Positions 19,685 to 22,390 of a stretch of DNA of 64,000 nucleotides are shown here, one piece after another (position 1 is the stretch's first letter; each line of letters starts with the position of its first letter). The DNA lies in NCBI RefSeq assembly GCF_010091945.1, contig NZ_WVIE01000013.1, forward strand, positions 62,001 through 126,000. Direction: 5' to 3'. A program made the translations under genes and the position numbers. The notes under the pieces are model-generated. The model was not told the origin of the DNA and did not search any database. It worked only from the letters and a program-made list of their open reading frames with translations. Source of the DNA: Myxacorys almedinensis A. Lineage in GTDB: Bacteria > Cyanobacteriota > Cyanobacteriia > Leptolyngbyales > Leptolyngbyaceae.

Positions 19685-19942
19685 ATGGCTGGTGTGATTA
19701 CAATTACGGTCAAACTGTTTGCGGCTTATCAAGAAGCCTATGGAGTTTCAGAACTGCATCTCGATCTGCCTGAAGGAAGTACGGTTGCGATGGTGTGCGA
19801 TCGCATCATTGGCGAGCGTCCTGAACTGGCTCCATGGCTGGATCTGACTCGGTTTGGAGTAAATCTACAGTTTGTTGAGCCGGATACTACTTTGCAGTCG
19901 GGCGATGAAGTGGTGCTGATTCCGCCTGTGAGTGGAGGGTAA
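19685..19942 (+). CDS. MoaD/ThiS-family sulfur-carrier protein (first of two flanking thrC)
   Basis: Start chosen at ATG 19685 (85 aa), where homology to small beta-grasp proteins begins (TITVKLFAAYQEAYG); longer frames from 19610 add an unlikely hydrophobic stretch. It ends in VLIPPVSGG, the diglycine tail that is adenylated and thiocarboxylated in MoaD and ThiS. Such proteins donate sulfur for molybdopterin, thiamine or amino acid synthesis. It lies about 150 bases upstream of thrC on the same strand, with a second carrier gene after thrC. No other molybdopterin gene is nearby, so a role linked to ThrC is plausible. Confidence 0.85.
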   Translation: MAGVITITVKLFAAYQEAYGVSELHLDLPEGSTVAMVCDRIIGERPELAPWLDLTRFGVNLQFVEPDTTLQSGDEVVLIPPVSGG

Positions 19943-19982
19943 GGCAAGATCCCGCCTGCTAAAATTTTGGTCAAATTCAATC

Positions 19983-19999
19983 CCGACTAAAAAAGTCGG
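19983..19999 (+). promoter_or_regulatory. Small hairpin upstream of thrC
   Basis: CCGACT (19983-19988) and AGTCGG (19994-19999) with an AAAAA loop, about 90 bases before the thrC ATG. No U-tract follows. It could be a weak attenuator or chance. Confidence 0.3.
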
Positions 20000-20089
20000 C
20001 TATATTTGACTCGGTATTTTCCCCGTGCTAGGATTCAGCAAAATCGTAGAAACAAATAAAACCCTTGCATCGCTAAGGAAATTTCAGGC

Positions 20090-21397
20090 ATGACTCAGGC
20101 AACCCAAGAGAAGGCAACGACTAGCGCAACCACTGCATTTCGAGCACTCCAGTGTAAAGAGTGTGGTGCCGAGTACGAACCCAAAGCAACGCACGTATGT
20201 GAATTGTGTTTTGGGCCTCTGGAAGTGAAGTATGACTACGACTTCTTACGCCGCACGGTGACTCGTGAAACGATTCAGGCGGGTCCTTTCTCGATTTGGC
20301 GCTATCGTCCCTTCTTGCCAGTCATGAGCGACAACCCGATCGATGTGGGAACGGGCATGACCCCGTTGCTGCAAGCCCATCGGTTGGCTCGTCGTTTGGG
20401 GCTGAAAAAGCTGTACATCAAAAACGATGCGGTGAATATGCCGACGCTGAGCTTTAAAGATCGGGTTGTGTCGGTGGCGTTGACTCGCGCACGGGAGCTA
20501 GGCTTCACCACGGTTTCTTGTGCCAGCACCGGAAATTTAGCCAACTCGACGGCTGCGATCGCGGCTCATGCCGGTCTTGACTGTTGCGTGTTTATCCCGT
20601 CTGACTTGGAAGCGGGTAAGGTGCTCGGAACGCTGATTTACAACCCCACCCTCATGGCGGTGCATGGCAATTACGATCAGGTGAATCGCCTCTGCTCTGA
20701 AGTGGCAAACACTCACGGTTGGGGCTTCGTCAACATCAATTTGCGCCCCTACTATTCTGAAGGCTCTAAGACCTTGGGCTACGAGGTGATTGAGCAACTG
20801 GGCTGGCAACTTCCCGATCACATCGTTGCGCCGTTGGCATCCGGTTCGCTGTTTACCAAAATTTACAAAGGCTTCCAAGAATTTGTGGAGGTTGGGTTAG
20901 TTGAGGGCAAGCCGGTTCGGTTTAGCGGTGCCCAGGCAGAAGGCTGTTCTCCCATTGCCCAAGCGTTTAGCGAAGGTCGCGACTTTATTTCCCCCGTCAA
21001 GCCCAATACGATCGCCAAGTCGCTGGCGATTGGCAACCCTGCTGATGGCGTTTACGCGATCGACATTGCCCACAAAACCAATGGCAATATCGAATCTGTC
21101 ACCGATGCCGAGATTATCGAAGGCATGAAGCTTTTGGCTGAAACCGAAGGTATTTTTACCGAGACCGCAGGCGGAACGACGATCGCGACGCTTAAAAAAC
21201 TGGTCGAAGCCGGTAAAATCGATCCGGATGAAACGACCGTGGTTTATATCACGGGAAATGGTTTGAAAACCCAAGAAGCGGTGCAAGGCTATGTGGGCGA
21301 ACCTCTGACCATTGAGCCAAAACTGGAGAGCTTTGAGCGTGCTTTGGAGCGATCGCGCACATTAGATCGCCTAGAGTGGCAGCAAGTTTTAGTTTGA
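20090..21397 (+). CDS. thrC: Threonine synthase
   Basis: 435 aa. An N-terminal zinc-ribbon-like segment (LQCKECGAEYEP, THVCELCFGPLEV) is followed by the PLP fold type II domain: GMTPLLQAHRLARRLGLKKL, PLP lysine in LSFKDRVVSVAL, STGNLANSTAAIAAHAG, and ETAGGTTIATLKKLVEAG. It converts O-phosphohomoserine to threonine in the cytosol. It sits between two diglycine-ending carrier proteins, which recalls PLP enzymes that accept sulfur from a carrier (CysM with CysO), but this sequence reads as an ordinary ThrC. Confidence 0.93.
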   Translation: MTQATQEKATTSATTAFRALQCKECGAEYEPKATHVCELCFGPLEVKYDYDFLRRTVTRETIQAGPFSIWRYRPFLPVMSDNPIDVGTGMTPLLQAHRLARRLGLKKLYIKNDAVNMPTLSFKDRVVSVALTRARELGFTTVSCASTGNLANSTAAIAAHAGLDCCVFIPSDLEAGKVLGTLIYNPTLMAVHGNYDQVNRLCSEVANTHGWGFVNINLRPYYSEGSKTLGYEVIEQLGWQLPDHIVAPLASGSLFTKIYKGFQEFVEVGLVEGKPVRFSGAQAEGCSPIAQAFSEGRDFISPVKPNTIAKSLAIGNPADGVYAIDIAHKTNGNIESVTDAEIIEGMKLLAETEGIFTETAGGTTIATLKKLVEAGKIDPDETTVVYITGNGLKTQEAVQGYVGEPLTIEPKLESFERALERSRTLDRLEWQQVLV

Positions 21398-21470
21398 CGG
21401 GATCAAACTCCTGACGGCTTCATTCGGTATGATTCAATTTCTGTAATTCAATCTTTCCTTCCTCCTAGTT

Positions 21471-21743
21471 ATGGTCAAAGTTCTGATTCCGACACCCCTT
21501 CAAAAGCTAACGAACGATCAAGCCGTTGTAGACTGCAAGGGTCGCAACATTTCTGAGTTGCTAGAATCTCTAGAAAGCAGTTGCCCTGGTATCAAAGCGC
21601 GACTGTGCGACGACCAGGGGAAGCTCCGCCGCTTTGTGAACTTCTACGTCAACAGCGAAGATATTCGCTTTTTAGAAAACGAAAACACCAAGCTGAACGA
21701 CGGGGACGAAGTGAGTATTATTCCTGCGATCGCGGGTGGCTAA
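21471..21743 (+). CDS. MoaD/ThiS/CysO-like sulfur-carrier protein (second)
   Basis: 90 aa beta-grasp protein starting [20 protein letters not shown], with [20 protein letters not shown] and [20 protein letters not shown], ending IIPAIAGG. The diglycine end and the 'VNxEDIRFL' block are closer to CysO-type carriers than to MoaD. It follows thrC by 73 bases on the same strand, probably in the same transcript. Confidence 0.85.
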
Positions 21744-22134: not shown

Positions 22135-22390
22135 AAAGGAGCGTTCGGATTAGGTCATGCGGTGGGTGGGGCGACCCCATGGGTTCTGAGAAGAGCCGCT
22201 GCTTCTACCGATGCTTTAACGCTGGCTCAGATTGGCAATTTTGGGGAACTGCGAAGGGTTGGGGATGACAGGAGCCACACTCTCAAGGGCTGCCGGGTTG
22301 ATATAAAAAGCCCCCAGCCGTAAAGCCAGGGGTGAATCATCAGGGTGCATCTACCATTCCTCTATACCTGGAGAGGTAGGAGGCATCCGG
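22135..22390 (+). mobile_element. Decayed IS200/IS605-type element, TnpB 3' tail and right end
   Basis: A start-less open frame at 22135-22323 reads like a TnpB C-terminal tail (GLGHAVGGATPWVLRR at its start, VDIKSPQP then stop). The stop lies inside CCCCCAGCCGTAAAGCCAGGGG followed by TGAATCAT, which resembles the imperfect palindrome at IS605 right ends. A second structure CTACC...GGTAG follows near 22350-22378. No TnpA and no TnpB catalytic part remain. Identification is by resemblance only. Confidence 0.4.

Follow-up and report, generated by a model that had tools for sequence, protein, structure and literature searches.

Known routes of sulfur transfer to homocysteine and cysteine

In the HcyS methionine route of Wolinella, a carrier thiocarboxylate donates the sulfur for homocysteine via an enzyme of the MetY type. 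A thiocarboxylate pathway is also named in a passage of PMC5764234, which further describes a homocysteine route that starts from aspartate semialdehyde and uses DUF39/HcyBio together with a NIL-ferredoxin. In the mycobacterial CysM-CysO-MoeZ-Mec+ route to cysteine, as outlined in an excerpt of PMC3227635, the thiocarboxylate of a carrier feeds a PLP enzyme. For Streptomyces, a route has already been published (MetM/MetO) that leads from phosphohomoserine to homocysteine by way of a sulfur carrier; a passage of Kim et al. 2025 (PMC12172450) refers to Hasebe et al. 2024 on MetM and metO and states that metM of S. albulus is preceded by a SAM riboswitch.

The locus described here lies in a 64,000-nucleotide stretch of the Myxacorys almedinensis A genome (the whole stretch is called the window; the genome, G000, has 4.96 Mb in 85 contigs). 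Like MetM-MetO of Streptomyces, the window contains a gene for a ThrC-like PLP enzyme followed by one for a carrier ending in GG. It shares with the mycobacterial route a CysO-type GG carrier, with a MoeZ-type E1 and a JAMM protein encoded in the same genome, whereas its PLP enzyme is ThrC-like rather than CysM-like and the JAMM and MoeZ genes lie on another contig. The Wolinella route has in common with the window pair the carrier thiocarboxylate as the proposed sulfur donor, but its enzyme is of the MetY type, which was not detected in G000. The DUF39/NIL-ferredoxin route is likewise a non-canonical homocysteine synthesis and both of its parts occur in G000; its enzymes, however, are unrelated to the pair, it starts from aspartate semialdehyde and its genes are on other contigs. 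On the comparative evidence presented below, we consider it likely that the enzyme and the carrier downstream of it are a cyanobacterial MetM-MetO pair making homocysteine. The kind of system is already known from Streptomyces MetM-MetO, and the cyanobacterial pair would be an added member.

Organization of the locus

In the window, genes for GG-ending beta-grasp proteins were found among the open reading frames on both sides of a gene named thrC, all three on the forward strand. The features are as follows:

19685–19942, + strand: carrier 1, 85 aa, C-terminus ...PPVSGG
20090–21397, + strand: PLP enzyme, MetM-like, thrC by standard models, 435 aa
20153–20209, + strand: N-terminal, zinc-ribbon-like CxxC...CxxC of the enzyme (residues 22, 25, 37 and 40)
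20456–20458, + strand: Lys123 of the enzyme, in the column of Tth Lys61
21471–21743, + strand: carrier 2, MetO/CysO-type, 90 aa, C-terminus ...PAIAGG
21735–21740, + strand: Gly-Gly codons at the C-terminus of carrier 2, the thiocarboxylate site predicted from the sequence

The preliminary description had placed two GG-ending beta-grasp proteins around thrC on one strand, and the coordinates and both C-termini agree with it. Promoter- and terminator-like sites at about 19983–20034 were dropped as candidates, being near the chance level. Downstream of the locus, a match to NsiR1 (nitrogen stress-induced RNA 1; 57.5 bits) occupies 22303–22356 on the reverse strand. The comparison covered 117 genomes of the phylum, including 49 of the window's class. 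A long form of the enzyme, 79–100% identical to that of the window, was present in 46 of these 49 genomes, the other three being G051, G107 and G114.

Phylogeny and residues of the PLP enzyme

The window enzyme passes the threonine synthase model TIGR00260 (thrC) with 339.9 bits against a cut-off of 167.1, and it shares with ThrC the fold and the PLP lysine. The name thrC is not discriminating, because TIGR00260 is also passed, with 270.1 bits, by a MetM-type protein of Nonomuraea (P0004) that is preceded by a SAM riboswitch. Both in sequence and in model fold, threonine synthases are nearest to the window enzyme; the structure model, of moderate quality (mean pLDDT 67), was used for fold assignment alone. 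For the enzyme, the top-scoring NCBIfam families are those of threonine synthases, and the 25 matches listed of 38 include no cysteine synthase family.

Of the 46 long-form genomes, 45 gave one or more additional matches to the enzyme, G000 (two matches) among them; the sole exception was G048, whose assembly is broken into about 530 contigs and in which a second match was absent. A short form (about 360 aa) is among the further matches in all 35 genomes for which matches were listed, and in 10 genomes, including G000, a further match was counted without a listed position. The enzyme as the sole threonine synthase was rejected on the second match in 45 of the 46 genomes. In a 48-row tree, long forms and actinobacterial MetM-type proteins formed one clade (100/100), in which the actinobacterial relatives stand for MetM, the S. 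albulus MetM sequence being outside the comparison. The short forms were placed together with the solved threonine synthases (100/99), with the exception of L148, a very long branch from G054; the window enzyme did not group with the solved threonine synthases in this tree, for which the program warns of long branches. The second match in 45 of 46 genomes and the separate clade suggest that the long-form enzyme is probably not the ordinary or main threonine synthase of the cell.

A separate clade, replaced loop residues and a linked carrier all set the window enzyme apart from ThrC. At 28 alignment positions, the long/actinobacterial clade (26 rows) and the threonine synthases (18 rows) each have an invariant or almost invariant residue that differs between the two, in a comparison made without the divergent L148, L160, L161 and L162, all four of which were kept in the tree. 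The differing positions include Tth T88, F134, S155, R160 and N188, which we take to be in or near the substrate site, and the uniform differences between the long form and ThrC fall in two loops, presumably those known as the asparagine and glycine-rich loops. The residues T88, S155, R160 and N188, fixed in threonine synthases, are not retained in the clade: L150, N217, Y222 and S251 stand in their place in 26 of 26 rows, and these replacements hold in all 47 cyanobacterial long-form loci (46 genomes). Lys123 is Lys in the same 47 loci and shares its column with Tth Lys61, presumably the PLP lysine.

The long form further differs from ThrC in an N-terminal extension, which in most genomes bears CxxC pairs. 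All four Cys are kept in the 31 aligned rows made up of the window and actinobacteria (31/31). Among the 46 cyanobacterial genomes, 13 have S, G and T in place of three of the four (loci L032, L033, L046, L047, L049–L054 and L056–L058), so that a conserved zinc ribbon was dropped as a mark of the clade and the zinc-ribbon-like part is evidently not required everywhere. Where present, the CxxC pairs may bind a metal.

The two carriers

Carrier 2 passes Pfam ThiS (PF02597; cut-off 22.5 bits) with 66.8 bits. Its closest solved relatives are of the CysO type (4n6e_B, 8e-19; 3dwg_C, 1e-17), and CysO is also the nearest fold to its structure model (TMq 0.92–0.93). In 43 of the 46 genomes, a homologue of carrier 2 lies directly 3′ of the enzyme on the same strand, at a median distance of 97 bp and a maximum of 494 bp, and the remaining three genomes encode one at another place (64–69% identical), giving 46 of 46 in total. 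In family f19, where 28 of 81 genomes have the long form, all four loci fetched have a carrier 2 homologue downstream. The adjacency of the enzyme and carrier 2 is more than chance. In G054, the MetO-type carrier (L057, 5421–5726) extends past the GG and ends in AGGSTRN, a tail that would require trimming prior to thiocarboxylation. A glutamine riboswitch (L053, 6714–6787) was observed 3′ of the metM-metO-type locus of G070.

Carrier 1 lies 147 bp upstream of the enzyme on the same strand and also passes PF02597 (60.2 bits), while its score against TIGR01682 moaD (58.6 bits) is under the cut-off of 66.15. A homologue was found 5′ of the enzyme on the same strand in 8 of the 46 genomes, with gaps of 80–618 bp and from families f1, f7, f11 and f15; in the other 38, it was not found in the inspected flank, which for most of the 46 genomes was 1.5 kb around the enzyme only. 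Beyond the 46, G196, a congener of G051, has the long ThrC with its carrier, as well as a carrier 1 homologue upstream of the enzyme. The preliminary description had proposed a co-occurrence analysis, and its result divides the two carriers: carrier 2 is downstream in 43 and present in all 46 genomes, and carrier 1 is adjacent in eight.

G000 contains three ThiS-family (PF02597) genes, namely carrier 1, the MetO-like carrier 2 and a ThiS gene that adjoins the thiamine monophosphate synthase gene, and it encodes MoaE (G000:C7). Since the other two are ThiS and MetO-like and MoaE is in the genome, carrier 1 is by elimination probably MoaD, the small subunit of molybdopterin synthase, and a neighbour of the enzyme rather than its partner. 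The distribution of MoaE fits this assignment: it occurs in 46 of the 49 class genomes, including all 44 with at least three ThiS-family matches. MoaE with fewer than three such matches was seen in G036 and G051, and G087, without MoaE and with two ThiS-family matches, retains the enzyme and carrier 2.

Actinobacterial relatives and SAM riboswitches

In Nonomuraea gerenzanensis (a plasmid-collection record), an enzyme 54.7% identical to that of the window is preceded by a SAM riboswitch (68.7 bits) and followed by a carrier gene; elsewhere, this organism has a separate carrier gene followed by a cysteine synthase family gene. A contig scan with a Nonomuraea-led alignment yielded 587 confirmed relatives, of which the best 80 are all actinobacterial by title, so that other phyla lie outside this sample. 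Among these best 80 of 587, a carrier gene is directly downstream of the enzyme in every locus (80/80), the two genes overlapping by 4 bp at one extreme and lying 148 bp apart at the other, and a SAM riboswitch is just upstream in 15 of the 15 loci scanned. This order of SAM riboswitch, enzyme and carrier is the MetM-MetO architecture. The window enzyme is 54–57%, and carrier 2 is 47–54%, identical to the aligned actinobacterial relatives. Residues past the GG were noted in 15 of the 80 actinobacterial MetO-type carriers (L066–L145, best 80 of 587), a single Cys in 13 of them.

The cyanobacterial loci differ from MetM-MetO of Streptomyces in that no SAM riboswitch was found in the window or in the 20 other cyanobacterial loci scanned; a SAM riboswitch in the window was considered and rejected, as its scan gave no match. 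The riboswitch is a regulatory companion in actinobacteria and not part of the definition of MetM. A further difference is that the genomes of the cyanobacterial pair carry DUF39 and NIL, and that homocysteine synthesis by the pair is there a prediction.

Sulfur supply and homocysteine genes

The preliminary description had proposed a search for a JAMM protease or E1-like enzyme gene elsewhere. Both are present in G000, where a JAMM gene is followed after 27 bp by that of a MoeZ-type E1-rhodanese on contig G000:C11, a contig other than that of the pair, and in 5 of 8 relatives fetched a MoeZ gene lies 3′ of JAMM within the 1.5 kb flank. A JAMM match was missing in 8 of the 46 genomes with the pair, and a ninth (G064) gave weak or broken matches only. 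The gene for methylenetetrahydrofolate reductase (MTHFR; L043, 5105–6121, reverse strand) is one gene away from JAMM-MoeZ on G000:C11, on the opposite strand. On an Aliarcobacter cibarius plasmid (L064, 7041–10276), a cysteine synthase family gene, an M67/JAMM metallopeptidase and a MoaD/ThiS carrier are encoded close together, the metallopeptidase and the carrier being separated by an IS110 transposase.

The genome search of G000 found no MetA, only weak partial matches to MetX (3.4e-8 at best, covering a portion of the model) and a best PF01053 E-value of 7.4e-7, with no indication of MetB, MetC, MetY or MetZ. It did find DUF39 (HcyBio), which we take to be one family with COG1900, at G000:C16 and a NIL-ferredoxin with NIL and 4Fe-4S domains at G000:C19, both off the pair's contig. 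DUF39 and NIL domains have exactly the same distribution, occurring in 50 of the 117 genomes and in each of the 46 that carry the pair; across genomes the count is of the NIL domain, the ferredoxin part being established for the G000 protein. The pair need not therefore be the sole source of homocysteine, and MetM/MetO as the only homocysteine route was dropped once DUF39 and NIL were found.

Canonical methionine genes were tallied by hand over the 49 class genomes (PF01053 at at least 100 bits, MetX at at least 195 bits, and any MetA). All three classes are lacking in 32 genomes, 31 of which have the pair. The exception, G051, has neither the pair nor a ThiS-family gene, and it keeps MoaE, DUF39 and NIL. 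Each of the other 15 pair-bearing genomes has at least one canonical gene, so that a strict either-or between MetM and canonical genes held in part only. G107 and G114, without the pair, DUF39 and NIL, have MetA and strong PF01053 members, and in G107 a MetY-type gene adjoins MetA.

Proposed pathway

From the genes of the pair, their linkage and clade, the accessory genes and the canonical homocysteine enzymes not found, and with CysM-CysO (PMC3227635) and MetM-MetO as models, we infer the following chemical steps. The MoeZ-type E1-rhodanese would adenylate the C-terminal glycine of carrier 2 and lead to its thiocarboxylate. The PLP enzyme would eliminate phosphate from O-phosphohomoserine, and the carrier thiocarboxylate would then add at C-gamma to give carrier-bound homocysteine. 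Homocysteine would be freed, perhaps by the JAMM peptidase, and go on to methionine; release by JAMM stays tentative, since eight of the 46 genomes are without JAMM and one more has weak or broken matches. Threonine synthesis would fall to the short ThrC, a separate enzyme, and carrier 1 would serve molybdenum cofactor synthesis. The idea of a carrier-dependent route to homocysteine, raised earlier for both carriers, best explains the enzyme together with carrier 2 and gives way for carrier 1, which is most simply MoaD; the sulfur-carrier chemistry first suggested is likely to be correct for one carrier but not the other.

The Microcystis orthologue and alternative explanations

An orthologue from Microcystis has been studied by Kim et al. 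(PMC12172450), and the following is taken from passages of that paper. With threonine, the orthologue rises 10.5-fold and the neighbouring carrier gene 6.8-fold, and addition of methionine brings thrC expression back to the control level. Induction by threonine and reversal by methionine are the pattern expected of a methionine gene. On the other hand, the purified protein converts phosphohomoserine to threonine and has threonine deaminase activity too; with Na2S it gives only an unidentified peak near methionine, in an assay whose description names Na2S and no carrier. Methionine does not rise despite the rise of ThrC, and methionine-pathway genes go down with threonine (PMC12172450). The authors hold that the orthologue does not fully act as MetM in Microcystis cells, and blame threonine deamination for threonine toxicity (PMC12172450). 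The threonine synthesis in vitro, the flat methionine and the lowered pathway genes stand against a simple MetM role; we think, nevertheless, that methionine shortage explains the induction better than deamination does.

Two alternatives leave homocysteine synthesis to other enzymes. In the one, which is the interpretation published for Microcystis, the enzyme serves as an additional threonine synthase with threonine deaminase activity, and the adjoining carrier is unrelated or regulatory. This accords with the synthase and deaminase activities of the purified orthologue (passages of PMC12172450) and with the TIGR00260 cut-off being passed, but the Nonomuraea MetM-type protein passes it as well (270.1 bits), another match exists in 45 of 46 genomes (the short form in all 35 listed), the carrier gene is a close neighbour in 43 of 46, residues at ThrC-fixed positions are replaced in 26 of 26 rows, and the sulfide assay was described with Na2S and no named carrier, all of which makes it rather unlikely. 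It is also unlikely that homocysteine comes from aspartate semialdehyde via DUF39 and NIL-ferredoxin while the pair passes sulfur elsewhere, for example to cysteine as in CysM-CysO. The DUF39 part of this reading is consistent with the joint presence of DUF39 and NIL in 50 genomes out of 117 (every one of the 46 pair-bearing genomes and the pairless G051 among them), with the NIL and 4Fe-4S domains of the G000 protein, and with the GapMind gaps given for Synechococcus elongatus PCC 7942 in a passage of PMC7311316, which include none for methionine. DUF39 membership alone, however, is no proof of its role here, because COG1900 also contains coenzyme M synthase (as noted in part of PMC12068725). 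The nearness of carrier 2 to CysO in sequence and fold would suit a cysteine-type acceptor; against it, the enzyme is nearest to threonine synthases, with no cysteine synthase family among the 25 NCBIfam matches listed of 38, and Nonomuraea has its own carrier-cysteine synthase pair besides its MetM-MetO pair. Such a role of the pair is also opposed by the SAM riboswitches that precede the actinobacterial loci (15/15 scanned, among the best 80 of 587).

That both flanking carriers supply the PLP enzyme is highly improbable. Carrier 1 does lie 147 bp upstream on the same strand, and the same arrangement is seen in 8 of the 46 genomes, spread over four families, but no upstream homologue was seen in the inspected flank of the other 38, MoaE is present in all 44 genomes with at least three ThiS-family matches, and G087 keeps the enzyme and carrier 2 without MoaE; carrier 1 as a partner of the enzyme was rejected on this adjacency and the tracking of MoaE.

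For the preferred MetM-MetO reading, a wider proposal can be put forward tentatively, at slightly less than an even chance: in most cyanobacteria, two routes to homocysteine, both non-canonical, may operate in parallel, one starting at aspartate semialdehyde (DUF39/NIL) and the other at phosphohomoserine (MetM/MetO), and the 'moonlighting threonine synthase' of Microcystis may be MetM, induced by methionine starvation that threonine causes. In a bolder form, the carrier and DUF39 would share one sulfur supply or one pathway, given that DUF39 and NIL occur in all 46 pair genomes. The MetM-MetO reading provides a likely function for a gene pair of 46 of the 49 sampled class genomes whose enzyme is a threonine synthase by standard models, and it offers methionine starvation as an explanation of threonine toxicity in Microcystis. 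For cyanobacteria in which no MetA, MetX or PF01053 enzyme was found, the source of homocysteine becomes a question of two loci, the pair and DUF39. In literature searches, PMC12172450 was the sole match for MetM with homocysteine and O-phospho-L-homoserine, and nothing closer was noticed among the matches on cyanobacterial homocysteine synthesis and ThrC active-site residues. The same paper ranked at the top of a search on threonine synthase, sulfur carrier protein and homocysteine.
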